Assembly (NCBI GenBank): GCA_029265355.1
Contig: JAJUJL010000003.1
Span: 62,001-126,000, forward strand
Origin: Chloroflexota bacterium
GTDB lineage: Bacteria > Chloroflexota > Anaerolineae > Anaerolineales > UBA4823
DNA length: 64,000 nucleotides
Direction of reading: 5' to 3'
Both the position numbers and the translations under genes were made by a program. Under the pieces are notes generated by a model. The model worked only from the letters and a program-made list of their open reading frames with translations. It was not told the origin of the DNA and did no database searches. How positions within the stretch are numbered: the stretch's first letter is position 1; each line of letters starts with the position of its first letter. Positions 51,560 through 61,075 of this stretch are shown piece by piece.

Positions 51560-52969
51560 ATGGAATTACATCTCTACGATACCTATACGCGAAGCTTGAG
51601 GAAGTTCGAACCCCTGGAGGCAGGTAAGGTCGGCATGTACACCTGCGGACCGACCGTCTATGATTACGCACACCTGGGAAACCTGCGCACTTATGTGTTC
51701 GAGGATATTTTGCGCCGTGTGTTGGAATTCAACGGCTACCAGGTGGAGCATGTTATGAACATCACCGATGTTGGACATCTGGTGTCGGACGCGGACGAGG
51801 GCGAAGATAAAATGGAGAAGGGCTCGCGCCGCACCGGTTTGAGCGCTTACCAGATTGCCGAGAAGTACACGGCTGCCTTCCAGGAGGATATCACCCGGTT
51901 GAACATCCTTTTCCCCACGGTGTGGTGCAAGGCGACCGAACACATCCAGGAGCAGATCGACTTCATCGCCTGCATCGAAGCCAGGGGATACACCTACCGC
52001 ACTTCGGATGGCATCTATTTCGACACCTCCAAGCTGCCGAATTACGGCTACCTGGCGCGCCTGGATATCGAAGGTCTGCAGGCTGGAGCGCGCATCGAAA
52101 TGGGTGAGAAGCGCAACCCCACCGATTTCGCCCTGTGGAAGTTCAGCCCAGCGGGTCAAAAAAGGCAGATGGAATGGGACAGCCCGTGGGGAGTCGGTTT
52201 CCCCGGCTGGCATATCGAATGCTCGGCGATGTCTGCGCGCTACCTGGGCAGTTTTTTCGATATCCATTGCGGTGGAGAAGATCATATTTCGGTGCATCAC
52301 ACCAACGAGATTGCGCAAACCGAAGCCTGCTACGGCACCCGCCTGGCGAACTTTTGGCTGCATGGTTATTTTCTGCAAGTGGACGCCGAGCGCATGTCCA
52401 AGTCATCGGGAGAGTTCTTGCGCCTGCAGAGTGTGCTGGATCGAGGGATCGATCCCCTGGCTTACCGCTTGTTTTGCTTGAATGCCCACTATCGCAGCAA
52501 GCTCAATTTTTCCTGGGAGGGCTTAGAGAGCGCAGCCACCTCGCTGCAGCGTTTGCGCACGGCTTACTACGAATGGGGGCAGTCAAGCGCAGGGCGGCAG
52601 GAGCGAATCGACGAGCAGATGCTGGGACGTTTTCGCGACCAGGTGAACGACGATCTGAATATGCCACGGGCGCTGGCGGTGGTGTGGGAGCTGGTGCGCA
52701 GCGATCTACCGCCAGAGATCAAAAAAGGCACCCTGTCCACGATGGATCGGGTGCTTGGTTTGCGGCTTGCTGAATGGCGCCCAGAGGAAGAGACCGCGCC
52801 GCTGGAGATTCTGACGCTGCTGGAAGCGCGGCAGCAGGCGCGCAAGGAGAAGCGCTGGGCGGACGCCGACGCGCTGCGCCAGCAGATCCAGGAAGCTGGC
52901 TATGAGATCGAAGATACACCACAAGGCTCGCGGGTGAAAAGAAAGCGCACCACGGTAGGTGAAGGATGA
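51560..52969 (+). CDS. cysS: Cysteinyl-tRNA synthetase
   Basis: Charges tRNA-Cys. The 469 residues contain the HIGH-type motif HLGN in [18 protein letters not shown], with the zinc Cys of TCGPT, and [15 protein letters not shown] with further zinc ligands. The KMSKS motif appears as [11 protein letters not shown]. The C-terminal region (about 390-469) is the anticodon-recognising part. It overlaps the first CooC-like gene by four bases (ATGA), so coupled translation is likely. Confidence 0.97.
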
Positions 52970-53754
52970 AAATTGCAATCACTGGCAAGGGCGGCGTTGG
53001 CAAAACCACGCTCACGGCGTTGTTGGCGCAGGTTTGGGCAGATCGCAAGCGGGAGGTTTTGGCGGTGGACGCTGATCCCTCCCCGTGCCTGGCGGGAGCG
53101 CTGGGCTTTCCAAGCGAGCTGCGCGCCGGGTTGCGCCCGGTGGCTGAGATGGATGACCTGATCTATGAGCGCACCGGAGCGCGCCCAGGACAGGTGGGTG
53201 GCTTTTTCACGATCAATCCCCGGGTGGATGACATACCAGAGCGGTTTTCGGCGCTGCACCGCGGTGTGCGCCTGTTGGAGATGGGCGCGGTGGACACTGG
53301 CGGCTCGGGTTGCATTTGTCCAGAAAGCGCCATGTTGAAAACGCTGTTCACCCACCTCCTGTTTCGCAAGGATGATGTGCTTTTGTTGGATATGTACGCT
53401 GGCGTGGAGCACCTGGGGCGGGCGACAGTGGATTTCGTCGACCTGATGCTGGTGGTGGTTGAACCGACGCGCCGCAGCCTGGGCACCGCGGCGCAGATCC
53501 GCAAGCTGGCGAATGATATCGGCCTGCAACGGCTATTGTTGGTGGGCAACAAAGTGCGCAACCCGGATGAAGCGGATTTCCTGGCGAAGGAATCCCCCGG
53601 TATGCCGGTGTTGGGCATCCTCCCGCACGATCCCCTGGTGCAGGAGGCAGATCGGCTGGGTGTGGCGGTGTACGACTATGTGCCATCCCTGCGCAAGGCT
53701 GCGGAGGGCATGGCCGATTTACTGGAGCAGGAGACTGCACTCATCGAACGGTAG
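52966..53754 (+). CDS. CooC-like nickel-insertion ATPase, copy 1
   Basis: A 262-residue MinD/SIMIBI ATPase like CooC, which helps put nickel into carbon monoxide dehydrogenase. The deviant Walker A is [10 protein letters not shown] (7-16). A CxC metal motif, Cys116 and Cys118 in GSGCICPES, matches the dimer metal site of characterised Coo[15 protein letters not shown] and [14 protein letters not shown] are the other family strands. The ATG overlaps cysS by four bases. No CODH catalytic gene is in the window. Confidence 0.88.
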
Positions 53755-53765
53755 GAGCGAGAAGC

Positions 53766-54557
53766 ATGACAACGACGATTGCACTGGCAGGCAAAGGCGG
53801 CGTGGGCAAGACGACCATCGCGGCGATGGTGATCAAGTACCTGGCGCAGAAAAAAAACGGCGCGGTCCTGGCTATTGACGCTGACCCGAGCAGCAACTTG
53901 AACATGGTGCTGGGGTTGGAGCTGGAATGGACGGTGGGCGATATTCGAGAAGATATGCTGGCTCAGGTGAAGGAGTCGTTGGTGACCGGTGGAGCGGCGA
54001 TGGGCACCATGCCCGGAGGGGTCTCCAAGCGCGATTACCTGGATTACCACGTGCGCCATTCGCTCTCAGAGGGCGATGAATTCGACCTGATCGCCATGGG
54101 GCGCTCGGAAGGCCCCGGATGTTACTGCGCGGTGAACCACAACTTGCGCGAAGTGGTGGACGCGATTTCACGCAACTATCGCTACGTGGTGATTGACAAC
54201 GAAGCCGGTATGGAGCACTTGAGCCGACGAACGACGCGCGACGTGCAGCACTTGCTGATCGTGAGCGATTCCACGCAGCGCGGTATCAGCGCGGCGGCGC
54301 GCATCGCTGGTTTTCGCAAGGAGCTGGATATTCGCATCGAAAACGCCTACCTGGTGATCAACCGGGCGCCAGGCGGCGAGCTGCCGCAGGCCTTGCAGGA
54401 ATACATCCGCCAAAATATGGATATTCCGCTGCTGGGAGTCGTTCCGGCGGACGATGAACTGGCAGCCTTCGAGTTCAGCGGTAGACCGCTGGTGGAGCTG
54501 GGGGATGAGTCGCCGGTGTACCAGGCTGTTCGGACGATGATGGGGAAGATGCTGTAG
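53766..54557 (+). CDS. CooC-like nickel-insertion ATPase, copy 2
   Basis: A 263-residue paralogue of the preceding gene, 11 bases downstream. The Walker A is [10 protein letters not shown] (9-18), and the CxC pair is Cys119 and Cys121 in GPGCYCAVNH. AIDADPSSNLNMVLGLE and VVIDNEAGMEHLSRRT are family strands. The two copies are clearly diverged, so they may act as a heterodimer or on two different nickel enzymes (for example CODH and acetyl-CoA synthase). This is an inference; neither target is visible here. Confidence 0.9.
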   Translation: MTTTIALAGKGGVGKTTIAAMVIKYLAQKKNGAVLAIDADPSSNLNMVLGLELEWTVGDIREDMLAQVKESLVTGGAAMGTMPGGVSKRDYLDYHVRHSLSEGDEFDLIAMGRSEGPGCYCAVNHNLREVVDAISRNYRYVVIDNEAGMEHLSRRTTRDVQHLLIVSDSTQRGISAAARIAGFRKELDIRIENAYLVINRAPGGELPQALQEYIRQNMDIPLLGVVPADDELAAFEFSGRPLVELGDESPVYQAVRTMMGKML

Positions 54558-54674: not shown

Positions 54675-56546
54675 TCAGCCGGTCTGCGATTGCAGCAAGC
54701 GCAGCAGGGAGCGCCGCGCCAGCAGATCTGCAGAGATCATGCCCAGGACATGCTTGCCCTCCACCACCGGCATGGCGGAGATCTCGTGACTTTCCAGGCG
54801 GCGGATCATGGTCAGGATATCGTCAGTTGGTGCAGCGCACACCACGCTGCGGGTCATGATCTCGGCCAGGGGTTGGTCTTCGGGAGACGCCAGGGAGGCG
54901 GCGCGAGTGATGTCGAAATTCGTCACAACGCCGACCAGTTGCTGAGCCGTGTCCAGCACAGCCAGGATGGGGGCGCCGGTCTCGACCAACAGGGCTGCCG
55001 CCTGGCGAACGCTGGCGGTATCGGCGATCGTGGGCATGGGTTCCATCAGATCGGCGGCGGTGCGATGGCGTTCACGCGAAGCAATGCGGCGGATGCTGAT
55101 CTGGGCGGCAGCTTCGTGGGGCAGCATATCGGCGTCGGTGAGCAGCAGATCGACCAGTTCGCGCATGTTGCGGCGGATAACGTTTTCACGATAGTCTTCC
55201 GCGGCTGCCAGGCGGCGTGCTGCCAGGAGCGCGAGCTCGCTGCTGTGGGCATCCAACCAGCCCTGCACCGCCTGGCGATCTCCCAGGATCGCTTCGGGCA
55301 GGCGCAATTCTTGCGGGGTTTTGATCAGGTGCTCCTGGGCAGCGAAGATGACGCCTCCTGAGTTGACCAGGTAATCGGTGGCAATCAAAACACCCCGGGC
55401 GCGATAGACGGCGCGCTCCATGCGGGCGCGAATAGCCTGGCGAGCCGGATCAGGGGAGTAGGTATTGGCGCCTTCGACGATGACCGACCAGCTTCCCATG
55501 CGGTCAACGACCATGCAGGGGTTGGTGGCAGGGTCTGTGTCGAGGTAATGGGCGATGGGAGCGGCGGGGATGAGGCAAAAAGCAGATTCGCGCAGCAGGT
55601 CGTTGGGATCCGAGCCGAATTTTACGGGGCGCTCTGAGATTTGATCCGAAAGCATGCTGGAGATGAAATACGGGCGGCAGACCAGGCCTTGCGCCTGCCA
55701 GAGTTCGAAGAGCTGATCGACGGGGAGCCCTTCAGGGGTGTAAAGGTAACCGCTGGCATCGCTGACGCCCACCACGCGGGCGCCGGGCAGGCGTTCCTTT
55801 AAAATCCGGGCGGCGTGCGCACCCACCGCTCCAAAACCCTGGATCATCACGGTGAGCTGGTTGGGATGGGGCAGCTTGAAGGTATTGAACTGCGGCAAGC
55901 TGCGCAGGCGAGGCATTTCTTCCAGCAGGGCTTGCAGAGCGATGACACAGCCGCCAGCAGCCGCGCCCAGCTCGTCGATGCGGTTGCCGCCCATGTCGAC
56001 CGGCTTGGAAAGGGCATGGTCGATGCCGTTTTCGATGGCGATGGTCTTCATGTCTTCATCGTTGGTGCCGACATCGGGCCCAGGCAGGTATATTTCCTTG
56101 TAGCGGTAGATCAAGCGGGCGAAGCGGCGCACAATCTCTGTGTGCTGATCGTGGGGCAGGCCGGGTTTGGCGACGATGCCAGACTTACCGCCGCCGTAGG
56201 GGAGCTGGGCAGCGGCGTTTTTGAGGGTCATGCCGCGCGCCAGGTTATGGATGGCAGCCGGTGTGACGCTCGGCAGCATGCGAATGCCGCCCATGGAGGG
56301 CTTTCCCATCGCCAGGTTGTCCACAACGAGGTAACCGCCGACTTCCAGGGGGGTGCTCTCGTCCCACATGCAGACGACCAGATGGGGTCCGAGATCATCC
56401 ACCTGGATGCCCAGGCGCGCCAGGCGATCAACATCCAGGGTGTTGAATTCCATGTAACAGCGACCCTGCTCATTGAGCAGGCGGTTGCGCCAGGTGCGCT
56501 CCGGCAAGCGTTCCTTGAGAAAAGCGAGCATTGCCTGAGGGATCAT
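54675..56546 (-). CDS. Glu/Leu/Phe/Val dehydrogenase fused to a CBS pair
   Basis: A 623-residue amino acid dehydrogenase with an added regulatory tail. Residues 1-420 match glutamate-type dehydrogenases: the catalytic Lys121 in LPYGGGKSG, the Asp in LPGPDVGTND, and the Rossmann loop IQGFGAVGAHAA. After a helical linker, residues about 503-623 form two CBS motifs (LMEPMPTIADTASVRQAA and IMTRSVVCAAPTDDIL). CBS pairs bind adenine nucleotides, so energy control is likely. The start at 56546 has AAGGAC upstream. The amino acid used is not certain. Confidence 0.88.
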   Translation of the reverse strand: MIPQAMLAFLKERLPERTWRNRLLNEQGRCYMEFNTLDVDRLARLGIQVDDLGPHLVVCMWDESTPLEVGGYLVVDNLAMGKPSMGGIRMLPSVTPAAIHNLARGMTLKNAAAQLPYGGGKSGIVAKPGLPHDQHTEIVRRFARLIYRYKEIYLPGPDVGTNDEDMKTIAIENGIDHALSKPVDMGGNRIDELGAAAGGCVIALQALLEEMPRLRSLPQFNTFKLPHPNQLTVMIQGFGAVGAHAARILKERLPGARVVGVSDASGYLYTPEGLPVDQLFELWQAQGLVCRPYFISSMLSDQISERPVKFGSDPNDLLRESAFCLIPAAPIAHYLDTDPATNPCMVVDRMGSWSVIVEGANTYSPDPARQAIRARMERAVYRARGVLIATDYLVNSGGVIFAAQEHLIKTPQELRLPEAILGDRQAVQGWLDAHSSELALLAARRLAAAEDYRENVIRRNMRELVDLLLTDADMLPHEAAAQISIRRIASRERHRTAADLMEPMPTIADTASVRQAAALLVETGAPILAVLDTAQQLVGVVTNFDITRAASLASPEDQPLAEIMTRSVVCAAPTDDILTMIRRLESHEISAMPVVEGKHVLGMISADLLARRSLLRLLQSQTG

Positions 56547-56566
56547 GGAAACGTCCTTGGTTTGGA

Positions 56567-56600
56567 AAAGCCCCACAGGTCTTCTAAACCTGCGGGGTTT
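56567..56600 (-). terminator. Rho-independent terminator of the unknown 429-residue gene
   Basis: ACCTGCGGGG and CCCCACAGGT form a near-perfect stem (one mismatch) with CTTTTCC following on the minus strand. It lies just after the stop at 56608 and before the dehydrogenase start. Confidence 0.7.
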
Positions 56601-56607
56601 GGAGCGG

Positions 56608-57897
56608 TCAGCGCAGTGCTGTAGCGACCTCGGCGTGGTGCAGGCGTTGGGCGGCAATGAAGGACAGCCCATTCTCGGTGAGCGCCCAGGCGGTGCGGTT
56701 GCAGGCCTCGAATTTATCCATGAAGTTCAACTGCAAAGCCTCCCAATCGCCGGAAGCGATGATTTCGGCCTTATCGCGGAAATAATCCAGGATATCGGAG
56801 GGGTGCGAGCGCGTCTGGTCGATCTCGGGGTCTCCGCCTTCGTGCTTGGCGGAAATGTTTGCCACGCGCCGGGCCACCTCCACCAGCTCCTGGCGGCGAT
56901 TATACGGCTGACGCACGATGGATTTGTAAGTTTCGGTGATGTGATGCTCAAAGCGCACCACCTGTTCGAAACCAAGTTGCTTGCGGAACTGGGCGGTGAG
57001 CTCCAGGGTTTGGTTGTTCACCGAGTTCGACCAATTGAAGCCGATCAGTGGGGAGCTGCCATCATCTCGGCTGAAGAGCTTGGCGCCGATCAGTGTCCAC
57101 AAGCCCGCGTAAGGGTTGTCGTTGCCCATAAAGACAGAGATCTTGAACTCGATATCCACGCCCAGGCGGTGGAGCAGGTAGCCGACCAAGACGGTGCCGG
57201 GGTTGATGTTCAAAACCTGGCGAACGCCGTAGTTGGTGTAGTAATACAGGAATTCATCCAGCCACTTGAGCGGGTAGTGGTTGGGTTGGCCGATGCCGCC
57301 GAAGTAGCCGGTGATGGTCGCTGGCCCGCCCAGGTGCACATTGGAGCCATCGGTGCCCTTGGTGTCGAGCGTCTCGACATAGGAAGCGCCGATGATCTGC
57401 ATGGCTGCGGCGATGGCCGGTAGGTCGCCGTCGGCTTCCTGTTCTTTCATTTTGCGCACCTTGATGAATCTACCGGGCATGAGCATGCCCTGCTCGATGG
57501 CGCGCCTGGCGCAGGCGATCACCCAGGGAAAGTACTGCGTGGCGCTGACTTCTAGCGTGACAGCCAGCTCATCCGGAAATTCTACCTGGTTGGCGCGTTC
57601 GCCGAGCACTTTGCGGCGATAGTCTTCCACGCTGATGAAAGCATGGCGATCGCGCTGCTCTTCGAGCCATTGCAGGTCTGGCAAGTATTCGGGGTTTCGC
57701 TCCCTGACGCGCTCCAGCAGGTTTGGCAGGGAGCGCGCCTGCTCGGCTTTGCGGTTGATTTCTTCGGGTGTTCCATAGCGCTGGACGACTTCCAGAAGCT
57801 GCTCAATTGCGGCGGTCTCCGGGTTGAGCAGCACCGCGTTGATGTCGTCGAGACGCTGATAAGGGATTTTCAGGCGTTGGCGCAGGTCTTCGGACAT
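56608..57897 (-). CDS. Conserved-looking hypothetical protein, 429 residues
   Basis: I do not recognise this family. The protein is soluble, with a helical N-terminus (about 1-110, KIPYQRLDDINAVLLNPETA) and then a probable alpha/beta barrel with ISVFMGNDNPYAGLWTLIGA, GSSPLIGFNWSNSVNNQT and FEHHITETYKSIVRQPYNRR. Many Gly-Asn-Asp clusters look like an active site. AAGGAG is six bases before the ATG. It lies between the dehydrogenase-CBS gene and panB and has its own terminator. A role in amino or keto acid metabolism is only guessed from neighbours. Confidence 0.75.
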   Translation of the reverse strand: MSEDLRQRLKIPYQRLDDINAVLLNPETAAIEQLLEVVQRYGTPEEINRKAEQARSLPNLLERVRERNPEYLPDLQWLEEQRDRHAFISVEDYRRKVLGERANQVEFPDELAVTLEVSATQYFPWVIACARRAIEQGMLMPGRFIKVRKMKEQEADGDLPAIAAAMQIIGASYVETLDTKGTDGSNVHLGGPATITGYFGGIGQPNHYPLKWLDEFLYYYTNYGVRQVLNINPGTVLVGYLLHRLGVDIEFKISVFMGNDNPYAGLWTLIGAKLFSRDDGSSPLIGFNWSNSVNNQTLELTAQFRKQLGFEQVVRFEHHITETYKSIVRQPYNRRQELVEVARRVANISAKHEGGDPEIDQTRSHPSDILDYFRDKAEIIASGDWEALQLNFMDKFEACNRTAWALTENGLSFIAAQRLHHAEVATALR

Positions 57898-57923
57898 GGG
57901 GAGCTCCTTTTCCCAGCAGGGGA

Positions 57924-57956
57924 AAATCCCGCCGCCGTGCAGAGCACAGCGGCGGG
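57924..57956 (-). terminator. Rho-independent terminator after panB
   Basis: CCCGCCGC and GCGGCGGG, with an inner GTGC/GCAC stem, form a strong hairpin followed by ATTTTCC on the minus strand. It starts 8 bases after the panB stop. Confidence 0.75.
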
Positions 57957-57963
57957 GGCATGA

Positions 57964-58818
57964 TCATTTGAGCAGGTTGAGCAGCTCTTCGTATTCTTCG
58001 TCTGGCATACCGAACCAGTTTTCTGGGGCAGGAAAGGTCTGGTTGGTGACTTCGGCGACGTACTGTTTCAATCCATTGAGGATCACCTCGCCAGCGTTGC
58101 CAAACATTTTTGCCATGCGAGGTTTGAAGCGGGGGTAGAGTCCAAACATGTCGTGGTAAATCAAAAGCTGTCCATGCGCATCCGGGCCAGAGCCAAGGCT
58201 CATGATGATGCAGTCCTGGGCGCGCTCGGTGATCAGTTTGCACAGTCGGTCGGGCACCATTTCCAGGAGGATGCAAAAGGCGCCGGCGTTCTCGAGGGCT
58301 TTGGCGTCATCGATGATTTTCTTTGCCAGGGCAGCGCTGCGCCCCTGGACGCGGTAACCGCCCAGGGCGGAGACACTTTGGGGGGTGAGGCCAAGATGCC
58401 CAATGGCGGGTATGCCAGCTTTGACGATACCCTCGATGCGAGAAGCCATCTCTGCGCCGCCTTCGAGTTTGATGGCGTCGGTGGCAGCTTCTGCCATGAA
58501 ACGACCGGCATTGCGGATGGCTGTCTCAACGCTGGGTTGGTAGCTCATATAGGGCATATCGCCGACCAGGAAGACATGGGGCGCGCCGCGGCGCACTGCC
58601 TGGGAATGGCGGATCATATCTTCCATTGTCACCGGCAAGGTGGTTTCATAGCCCAGCATGGTCATGCCCAGGCTGTCGCCAACCAAAATCATATCGATGC
58701 CGGCTTCTTCTTGCAGGTAGGCGGTAGGGTAGTCGTAACAGGTGAGCCAGGTGATGGGTTCTTTGTTTGCAACTTTCTTGAATAACATCGGCAAGGTTAC
58801 TTTTTTGCGATCCGACAT
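57964..58818 (-). CDS. panB: 3-methyl-2-oxobutanoate hydroxymethyltransferase
   Basis: The first step of pantothenate synthesis: adds a one-carbon unit to 2-oxoisovalerate. The 284 residues show LTCYDYPTAYLQEEAGIDMI, LVGDSLGM (metal Asp), VGDMPYMSY, AIKLEGG and the GHLGLTPQSVSALGGY block. In the last motif, GPDAHGQLLIYHDMFGL stands where most enzymes have CDGQxLVxHD. The start at 58818 is supported by GGAGG five bases before it. No panC, panD or panE is present, so a catabolic paralogue cannot be excluded. Confidence 0.9.
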   Translation of the reverse strand: MSDRKKVTLPMLFKKVANKEPITWLTCYDYPTAYLQEEAGIDMILVGDSLGMTMLGYETTLPVTMEDMIRHSQAVRRGAPHVFLVGDMPYMSYQPSVETAIRNAGRFMAEAATDAIKLEGGAEMASRIEGIVKAGIPAIGHLGLTPQSVSALGGYRVQGRSAALAKKIIDDAKALENAGAFCILLEMVPDRLCKLITERAQDCIIMSLGSGPDAHGQLLIYHDMFGLYPRFKPRMAKMFGNAGEVILNGLKQYVAEVTNQTFPAPENWFGMPDEEYEELLNLLK

Positions 58819-58886
58819 TCGGTCCTCCATAAAAGGTTGAACAGACGAATTTTGCCAGCTTTGGCTGATGAGCTGCTGACAATTTT

Positions 58887-58933: not shown

Positions 58934-61075
58934 TCAGCGCATGCGCTGGCGATTGAGCATCAATCCGAATAAAATGACCACGACGATCAGCATGCCGAAA
59001 GCGACCATCCAATGAGAAATGTTCGGATTGGTGGGAGGTGGAATAATTGGGGGGGTCAAGGTGGGTCGGGGTGTGCGCGTCGGACGTGGGGTGGGTGTGC
59101 CGGTTGGAGCCGGGGTCGAGGAGGGGGTGATCGTCGGTGAGGCGGTGATCGTCGGGGTGGCGCTGATCAGGGCTGGCGTGGGCCGGGGATGACCAACGCT
59201 CCCCTGGTAGGCGATTTCAGGCGCAAGCTGGTCGCCTGGCCCAAAGACATCCAGCAAGCCATTGGCTATCACGAAGGCCTGGTTATCGCCCAGCTCGAGG
59301 GTTGCTGTGCGCAAGTCCAGCACCAGGGCAGCATTGTCGCCCAGGGCGGATGCGCCGCTGGAGCTGATCTCCACCGCGGTGTTTGGATTCAGTCCGACGG
59401 TGATTTGATCGTTGAAGTTGTAAGCCAGGGCGAACAAGCGTCCCCAGCGGTCATCCAGCATCACATCGGGTTCCACCGTAATATCGAGCAAACCGATGCC
59501 AGGGCGCATTTGAATGTCGCCCTGGATGAAAGCTCTCTGCAGCGCCAGGTCGCGCGGTTCGCCTCCTGGGGGCGGGGGTGGACTGGCGATGTAGTGAGGA
59601 CCAGCCATGGCGGAAGCTGCGCCAACCATGAGAACAGGCTTACCTTGCCCGAGCGCCTGCGGCAACCAGCCGGCAAACTGGGGGTGGAGCGAGCTTTGGT
59701 CGAGGGCAAGCACCAGCACAGCGTCGAAGTCTTTTAACTCTGGAATGGGGGGCTGCGAGGCAGCGCTCGGGTCGAGCGCCACGCCTGGGCCGGGAAATTG
59801 CAAGCTGGAACGAGCAAGCTGGCTGGCGCGCTGTGCGCTGTCCAGGTCTGGGTAACCATCAACGAAGATCAATACACGCCCACCATGCGCCTCGGCCAGA
59901 GTGCGGAAGCGGCTGAGCACGGGATTGTCCGGCTGGGAGAAATCCAGCGATCCAGACAGGAGCAACGGTCCAGCTCCGGAGGGGAGGTGCAAGGCTTGAA
60001 ATTCGCGGCGCAAGAGCCCCACGGGTGCAGCCAGCGAGTGTTGGCGGGTGTTTAGATCGTAACTGAATGCGCCTGGGGCAAGCAGATGAACGAGAATGTT
60101 GCGCAGGCTGAGCAGCGGCGTGCAGGGCAAGACTGGACCGCTCTCGCCGCAGCCTTTGTAGGACACATTGCGAGAGGCCTGGTAAGTCTCGCCATCGAAA
60201 ATCGCCACCGTGTACAGGCCAAAGACGCCTTCGAGACGCTCACCGGCAGGGACCAATACGCCGGTGTCGCTATCGACGCCGACGCCAACATGCGGGCTGG
60301 CTGGATCGGTGATGGCGTTCAACAGGCGTCCGACCCGTCCGCGCTGGAAGATGGACTGGTCCAGGATGGCAGTGCGTAACCCGAATGGTAAGCCGTGCTT
60401 CTCTGCGCTGTTCCACAGATCCACGGCACCAAAGTTGAGGGCGTTGGCAGCGCTGAAACCCTCTTGATAGCCACTGAGCATAGCTGCTGAGAGCATGTTC
60501 CCGCCGGCGCTGGCGCCGGCGATGATGACGCCGTTCTCGTAGGCTTGCGTCAAAGCGACTTCCACCGGTGTGCCGTTGATCACCTGCATGGCGGTGGCCT
60601 GGTCGTTGCCAAGGATGATGACCGCCGAGAGATCAGTGGAGAAATATTCGCCCACCGCAGGGTCGAGCGCATCCGAGCGGGTGAGGATGGGAGCGACCAC
60701 GGCGCTGCAAACCATCCCCGAAGGAGCGGCGAGCCTGCAGGCCTCTTCGATTTGGGAACGCTGCTCTTCTACCTGACTCAGGATAGCGCGTCGCTCGGCG
60801 TCGGAAACGGCATCTGGGCTGGCAGCGTAAGGAACTGGCAGCACCAGGATATTGACATAGCCGCTGCGGTGATTGGCCACTGCTGCCGCGGAGAATCCGT
60901 CGAAAATTTCGGCGTGACCTCCGCCGATCGGAATCAAAAAGGGTGTGGGGGATTCCTGGCGGGGAACAGCGGCGCGCGCAGGTTGCCCGCCTGCCGTTAA
61001 CCACAGTGGTGAGGAAAGTATCCCGATGAGAAAGAGGAATAGAATCGGCCGCGAGCGCCTGGAGTTAAGGCTCAT
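58934..61075 (-). CDS. Exported cyanophycinase-like (S51) protein with membrane anchor
   Basis: A 713-residue protein. A signal sequence (about 1-35) is followed by an S51-like region: LIPIGGGHAEIF, VIILGNDQA and the nucleophile elbow IAGASAGGNM, then GLRTAILDQSIFQRGRVGRL. It is predicted to cut aspartate-linked peptides such as cyanophycin outside the cell. A second region (about 330-600) is unassigned. The end is a Thr/Pro-rich linker (TPTPRPTRTPRPT), a membrane helix and RQRMR. TACAAT sits eight bases before the ATG with no ribosome site, so the mRNA may be leaderless. Confidence 0.82.
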   Translation of the reverse strand: MSLNSRRSRPILFLFLIGILSSPLWLTAGGQPARAAVPRQESPTPFLIPIGGGHAEIFDGFSAAAVANHRSGYVNILVLPVPYAASPDAVSDAERRAILSQVEEQRSQIEEACRLAAPSGMVCSAVVAPILTRSDALDPAVGEYFSTDLSAVIILGNDQATAMQVINGTPVEVALTQAYENGVIIAGASAGGNMLSAAMLSGYQEGFSAANALNFGAVDLWNSAEKHGLPFGLRTAILDQSIFQRGRVGRLLNAITDPASPHVGVGVDSDTGVLVPAGERLEGVFGLYTVAIFDGETYQASRNVSYKGCGESGPVLPCTPLLSLRNILVHLLAPGAFSYDLNTRQHSLAAPVGLLRREFQALHLPSGAGPLLLSGSLDFSQPDNPVLSRFRTLAEAHGGRVLIFVDGYPDLDSAQRASQLARSSLQFPGPGVALDPSAASQPPIPELKDFDAVLVLALDQSSLHPQFAGWLPQALGQGKPVLMVGAASAMAGPHYIASPPPPPGGEPRDLALQRAFIQGDIQMRPGIGLLDITVEPDVMLDDRWGRLFALAYNFNDQITVGLNPNTAVEISSSGASALGDNAALVLDLRTATLELGDNQAFVIANGLLDVFGPGDQLAPEIAYQGSVGHPRPTPALISATPTITASPTITPSSTPAPTGTPTPRPTRTPRPTLTPPIIPPPTNPNISHWMVAFGMLIVVVILFGLMLNRQRMR

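Follow-up and report, generated by a model that had tools for sequence, protein, structure and literature searches.

We found that a gene of a Chloroflexota bacterium (the target gene; Table 1) encodes the type member of a hitherto unrecognised soluble enzyme family, predicted to fold as TIM barrels, and that it is paired with a paralogue of ketopantoate hydroxymethyltransferase (PanB2). Our preferred reading, to which we assign a probability of roughly 0.4, is that the two proteins would act on C4 amino and keto acids around homoserine and 4-hydroxy-2-oxobutanoate (HOB), together with folate-borne one-carbon units; any precise reaction of the target within this pathway is held with much less confidence. 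The pair lies in a 64,000-nucleotide stretch of contig JAJUJL010000003.1 (positions 62,001 to 126,000), which is referred to here as the window.

A sequence-only reading had proposed the reading frame of the target, and codon-position evidence bears it out as coding. GC content at codon positions 1, 2, and 3 is 0.63, 0.38, and 0.77, and the differences from three homologues fall mostly on the third position (0.18/0.11/0.45, 0.19/0.11/0.46, and 0.21/0.13/0.52 per codon position). The good ribosome site described for the gene is present, six bases 5' of the ATG. The further claim that the gene has its own terminator is plausible: strong hairpins flank the gene on both sides, but a terminator scan called neither of them.

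Table 1. Features of the target locus, given in window coordinates
Feature	Coordinates	Strand	Basis and properties
PanB2, ketopantoate hydroxymethyltransferase paralogue, 288 aa, first gene of the pair	57964..58830	(-)	TIGR00222, tree, pocket residues
Strong hairpin in the PanB2/target gap	57898..57963	(-)	-36.1 kcal/mol, z -4.45; attenuator- or processing-like
Target Shine-Dalgarno sequence AAGGAG	57904..57909	(-)	Read from sequence, 6 bases 5' of ATG
Target gene, 429 aa	56608..57897	(-)	Open reading frame and translation, ATG...TGA
Terminator-like hairpin in the target/dehydrogenase gap	56547..56607	(-)	-22.0 kcal/mol, z -2.58; tail CUUUUCC
ELFV-type amino-acid dehydrogenase with two CBS domains, ~623 aa (probable start)	54675..56546	(-)	PF02812, PF00208, PF00571

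Searches of the target against profiles found no Pfam or NCBIfam family at E values up to 1, and phmmer found no match among PDB sequences at E values up to 10. A 23-row profile searched against the PDB returned unrelated proteins at E 0.26 and worse, and 23 homologues scanned singly against Pfam gave scattered chance matches, the best at E 0.034. The earlier remark that no family came to mind thus holds for Pfam, NCBIfam, and PDB sequences, and no match to a known family with another role was found. The literature, judged mainly at the level of search results, yielded no account of the target family or of a PanB2-type paralogue.

Relatives of the target abound, with identities of 56-82%. They come from Chloroflexota, Bacillota, Spirochaetota, one Polaromonas plasmid, and, in rare cases, cyanobacterial bins; phylum labels were taken from record names. 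The gene is present in 36 of 61 near relatives and in 24 of a sample of 400 Chloroflexota genomes. It was also found in 13 of 348 Bacillota and 2 of 247 Spirochaetota genomes, counts that include the genome by which each phylum was found, and the one hit in 244 Cyanobacteria genomes is the query genome itself. A single plasmid record among 72,556 carries it (Polaromonas, 57.7% identity). The species collection gave at least 594 pattern matches, at least 563 of which encode a target relative, and 80 loci were kept. Three of the loci (L055, L094, and L096) come from bins named Calothrix, Leptolyngbyaceae, and Hydrococcus; these cyanobacterial-bin copies represent either rare transfer or misbinned contigs. 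At one Bacillota locus (L186, 8508-9815, genome G497), the open reading frame list divides the target region in two and one TGA is reported by the genome search, which may reflect damage, an assembly error, or another cause.

Conservation within the family is high: 84 of the 429 positions are invariant over 107 distinct rows, which include the Bacillota, cyanobacterial-bin, and Polaromonas members. Both motifs that had been singled out from the sequence as resembling an active site are conserved, with G258, D260, and N261 as well as N288, N291, and S292 invariant in the 107 rows and placed at the ends of predicted barrel strands 5 and 6. AlphaFold models of the target (mean pLDDT 86.6 with 23 sequences and 89.1 with 56 sequences) predict a helical N-terminal part (~1-110) and a TIM barrel (~112-420); the loop after strand 3 (~180-203) is poorly modelled. 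The invariant residues, which include E116, R148, D178, K252, D260, N288, N291, E317, H318, H319, K351, H352, and E353, gather at the predicted barrel strand ends. Invariant histidines are found at 188, 318, 319, 352, and 420. No cysteine is invariant among the 107 or 56 rows, which makes an Fe-S or radical cluster, and an Fe-S or radical-SAM enzyme, unlikely.

Structure searches with the two models returned class II aldolases, beta-keto acid cleavage enzymes, CutC, DHDPS-type lyases, and a designed barrel, with Z scores of 10.5 to 12.6 among the 50 matches listed. The best Foldseek matches are class II fructose-bisphosphate aldolases and DERA-type aldolases (E 9e-4 and 3e-3), which reach TM-scores of ~0.3-0.35 on the query at less than 15% identity and have no sequence relation to the target. 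Over the full barrel, the nearest enzyme fold is that of BKACE/Kce (DUF849; Z 11.3-11.9, rmsd 3.6-3.9, 225-227 aligned positions, model residues ~108-429), tied at 8-10% identity with unrelated barrels, namely CutC, neuraminate lyase, and a designed barrel (Z 12.6). The Kce substrate, 3-keto-5-aminohexanoate, is a keto acid of amino-acid fermentation. The zinc site of BKACE/Kce includes HxH on strand 2, a strand that in the target (143-149) contains no histidine. Because the matches are tied and include unrelated and designed barrels, the fold names no function, and naming the target by its fold was given up after two models and four structure searches had produced tied barrels only.

The neighbours of the target had been identified as a dehydrogenase-CBS gene and panB. 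These identities stand, except that this panB is a paralogue and a complete pantothenate operon is located elsewhere in the genome. The genome encodes two PanB proteins: a canonical one on contig C32 (349.5 bits with TIGR00222), whose gene stands in a complete panB-panE-panC-coaX operon, and the PanB2 of the window, which at 286 bits also exceeds the curated PanB cut-off of 207.55 bits. In a tree of 115 distinct PanB sequences, one branch (SH-aLRT 99) has on one side 30 canonical sequences, selected by score as the highest-scoring ones in the relatives, and on the other 80 target-adjacent sequences (11 from Bacillota included) and five others, the window-type clade that we call PanB2. Seven positions that we take to be catalytic (D45, S46, D84, K112, E114, H136, and E181 in E. 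coli numbering) are kept in all 97 PanB2 sequences. The predicted keto-acid pocket is altered: Leu179 and Ile214 occur in 97 of 97 PanB2 proteins, whereas 30 of 30 canonical proteins have valine at both positions, and position 212, valine in all 30 canonical proteins, is leucine in 95 of the 97 (the others have one Cys and, at locus L207, one Val). The larger residues at 179, 212, and 214 suggest an oxo-acid acceptor smaller than ketoisovalerate. In the available part of one study, I202, I212, and V214 of E. coli PanB were altered to change or widen its oxo-acid scope (PMC7610986). PanB2 thus shares its score above the cut-off and its active-site positions with canonical PanB (PF02548/TIGR00222), but differs in its separate clade, its pocket, and its place outside the panB-panE-panC-coaX operon; we conclude that it is not the housekeeping PanB.

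The pairing of target and PanB2 is near-obligate and well supported. Among the 61 relatives, PanB2 occurs in 35 of 36 genomes with the target versus 2 of 25 without it (Fisher 2e-13, phylogeny ignored). This count takes as PanB2 the matches below 300 bits, the lowest of which scores 276, and adds a frame-broken copy that adjoins the target in G040; a 307.7-bit match in G052 remained unassigned, and fragments with weaker scores were omitted. The exceptions are G032, which has the target without PanB2, and G024 and G025, which have PanB2 without the target. Neighbours were counted by tblastn. In 70 of the 80 loci the sequence extends 900 bp or more upstream of the target, and 54 of these 70 have PanB2 no more than 700 bp from it (53 in the same orientation, median gap 72 bp); the remaining 16 have no PanB2 nearby. 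The two genes are also adjacent in 11 of 12 fetched Bacillota loci, where the gene order is reversed and PanB2 is only 48-56% identical to that of the window. A thirteenth Bacillota match, outside these 12 (G457, locus L109), has PanB2 upstream of the target, and the genes are adjacent in one Spirochaetota locus (L207). No PanB was found on the Polaromonas plasmid that carries the target, and no PanB2 was found near the cyanobacterial targets. The neighbourhood, whose conservation the sequence-only reading had named as a check, is kept across phyla.

The dehydrogenase on the other side of the target was listed as an open reading frame beginning at 56672; the ATG at 56546 fits most full-length relatives (621-635 aa) and is probably the start. 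Its sequence reads PSMGGIR where glutamate dehydrogenase (GDH) has PAKGGIR, and the lysine position is occupied by Met in eight and Leu in one of nine motif-bearing sequences. We take the lysine of PxKGGxR in GDH to be the residue that binds the glutamate gamma-carboxylate, and the predicted dehydrogenase lacks it. Its CBS pair suggests nucleotide control. The dehydrogenase is found within 2.6 kb of the target in 16 of the 80 loci and adjoins it in other Chloroflexota too.

Where PanB2 stands away from the target (11 loci read, L208-L218), the next gene in 6 of the 11 encodes an aminotransferase; these orthologous proteins come from five genera, are mutually 64-83% identical, and recur at 54% identity inside the target cluster of the cyanobacterial locus L096. 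In L208-L210, all from one genus (g19), PanB2 is preceded by homoserine dehydrogenase (NF004912, 409 bits versus a cut-off of 373 in L209). Formate-THF ligase is encoded within 3.5 kb in 8 of 50 loci, in several of them with FolD. The target is preceded by a threonine-dehydrogenase-like gene and KBL in L094 and L096 and by methionine gamma-lyase in L194, and a GntG/threonine-aldolase-type lyase lies beside it in L207, convergent rather than co-transcribed. An enzyme of the gamma-synthase/gamma-lyase family adjoins PanB2 in L211 and is encoded close to the target in L120, and a few loci have tyrosine-phenol-lyase/tryptophanase-type genes and Lrp regulators. Lrp-type regulators and enzymes of amino-acid metabolism likewise account for many of the other annotated target neighbours. 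The rest of the Bacillota neighbourhood (TldD/PmbA, a GH4-type enzyme, transporters, and sarcosine-oxidase-like flavoproteins) indicates no single pathway. The common ground of the remaining neighbours is C4 amino and keto acids and folate one-carbon units. Context and sequence thus support the early suggestion that the target is a metabolic enzyme of amino- or keto-acid turnover.

Several further observations concern the surroundings of these genes. Two tandem CooC/MinD-type ATPases (52966-54557, plus strand) adjoin cysS (51560-52966); several near relatives have them in convergent orientation to the target operon. Coupling of the target to the CooC-type genes and the adjoining thiolase is seen only in a subset of near relatives; we set it aside as local. 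A 713-aa cyanophycinase-like protein (58934-61075, minus strand) scores 90.5 bits with TIGR02069, below the 126.6 cut-off; it begins with a signal-like stretch and also has a tail rich in Pro and Thr and a hydrophobic segment at the C terminus. In L055 (4538-5632), a DapA-like aldolase (PF00701) and a glutamate-dehydrogenase-like gene are directly upstream of the target, and PanB2 is not nearby. A 516-aa protein of L191 (1071-2618) and L193, with no Pfam or NCBIfam match at the limits used, occurs in Bacillota clusters that contain the target, PanB2, an NhaC-type antiporter, and SoxA/SoxB-like flavoproteins.

An alternative role for the pair would be in pantothenate and CoA synthesis, with PanB2 making ketopantoate and the target adding a supplementary or regulatory step on the way to vitamin B5 or CoA. 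The score of PanB2 and its full set of catalytic residues are what this role would lead one to expect, and a canonical PanB above 315 bits is missing from 8 of the 36 relatives that carry the target; in those eight, PanB2 might serve pantothenate, or the bins might be incomplete. The role is nevertheless improbable: the complete operon on C32 argues that PanB2 is not devoted to pantothenate, a canonical PanB above 315 bits accompanies both genes in 27 of the 35 genomes that have them, and the pocket signature differs in every PanB2 sequence. In addition, panC, panD, and panE were not recognised beside the target in the annotated loci, in which some neighbours were scanned. Fermentation of branched-chain or other apolar amino acids deserves more weight, although we still regard it as unlikely. 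In this scheme, the dehydrogenase and aminotransferase would act on Val, Ile, Leu, or 2-aminobutyrate, PanB2 would hydroxymethylate or de-hydroxymethylate a 2-oxo acid such as 2-oxobutyrate, and the target would process a branched 4-hydroxy-2-oxo acid. The Met or Leu in place of the GDH lysine fits, as we take this to be the state in apolar amino-acid dehydrogenases such as leucine dehydrogenase, and so do the Lrp-type regulators, the methionine gamma-lyase of L194, which yields 2-oxobutyrate, and the gamma-synthase/gamma-lyase enzyme of L211 and L120. However, a C4 hydroxy compound is what the homoserine dehydrogenase adjoining PanB2 suggests, and the larger residues at 179, 212, and 214 argue for an acceptor below ketoisovalerate in size.

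The target might instead replace homoserine kinase (ThrB) and threonine synthase (ThrC) in threonine biosynthesis, as homoserine kinase exceeds its cut-off in 5 of 36 target-bearing genomes versus 14 of 25 without the target. That link vanishes both within the family (0/27 versus 1/10) and outside it (5/9 versus 13/15, p 0.15) and is therefore largely phylogenetic, and threonine synthase reaches at least 280 bits in 23 of the 36 target-bearing genomes, this genome included, without association; we rejected the substitution as very unlikely. A divergent B12-dependent aminomutase barrel of the lysine 5,6- or ornithine 4,5-aminomutase type would suit the TIM barrel and the amino-acid fermentation context, and the strand-3 loop of the target seems by eye to resemble KamD, a likeness that is not a test. 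Profile-profile comparison with hhalign gave 0.4% for the target against KamD and 0.2% against OraE, versus 99.9% for the KamD-OraE positive control, and Pfam detected no B12-binding domain in the target. With the control working, kinship to the large subunit of the B12 lysine/ornithine aminomutases (PF09043) was discarded, and we give it hardly any credence; the absence of the KamD structure among the structure-search matches listed carries no weight.

In the preferred HOB reading, the target and PanB2 would serve one pathway, and PanB2 would be adapted to a smaller keto acid than ketoisovalerate. It would carry a hydroxymethyl group from methylene-tetrahydrofolate to a small 2-oxo acid or back, most likely with pyruvate and HOB, the 2-oxo analogue of homoserine, as the pair. 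The neutral amino-acid dehydrogenase of the window, or the aminotransferase in other genomes, would interconvert HOB and homoserine, and FolD and formate-THF ligase would tie the one-carbon unit to formate. The target would catalyse an adjacent step with these C4 hydroxy-amino or hydroxy-keto acids; as a lyase or isomerase, it would connect the homoserine/HOB side with that of threonine and 2-oxobutyrate. Its chemistry would be acid-base, possibly with a metal, and would draw on E116, R148, D178, K252, D260, N288/N291, E317/H319, and K351/H352/E353; it would depend on neither B12 nor an Fe-S or radical cluster. We infer the identity of the substrates, the direction, and the reaction of the target. 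Several findings weigh against this pathway: the target has no residue-level homology to a known catalyst, its barrel matches are tied, threonine-side genes occur in few loci (with the lyase of L207 convergent), and homoserine dehydrogenase accompanies PanB2 in one genus only. Further points against it are the target copies without a PanB partner on the Polaromonas plasmid and in the cyanobacterial loci, the eight relatives lacking a canonical PanB, Val212 in the PanB2 of L207, and the genomes with one gene of the pair only (G032, G024, and G025).

The kinds of genes around the target and PanB2 are also those of the synthetic homoserine cycle, as far as the available text of a review describes it (He et al., in PMC8879981): pyruvate and a one-carbon unit give HOB, an HOB aminotransferase follows, threonine is cleaved to glycine, and serine is returned to pyruvate. 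That cycle is engineered and, in the same text, uses free formaldehyde with an aldolase, as well as homoserine kinase and threonine synthase (PMC8879981), whereas PanB2 is, by homology, probably folate-dependent. There is a slim chance that anaerobic Chloroflexota and Bacillota possess its natural counterpart. PanB2 would then make or split HOB with methylene-THF, a dedicated aminotransferase or dehydrogenase would link HOB and homoserine, and the target would join homoserine/HOB directly to threonine-level C4 compounds without phosphorylation, connecting formate with acetyl-CoA or glycine by way of C4 amino acids.

The target marks a real annotation gap, being a highly conserved protein for which no family model or characterised relative was found. 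PanB2 would, by the curated cut-off, be labelled a pantothenate PanB, probably wrongly. The two proteins probably handle small amino or keto acids together with folate-bound one-carbon units. If PanB2 does handle HOB or another small 4-hydroxy-2-oxo acid, anaerobes would have a natural route that exchanges one-carbon units with C4 amino acids, a kind of route for which the only example we found in the literature, in the available text of the review, is engineered (PMC8879981).
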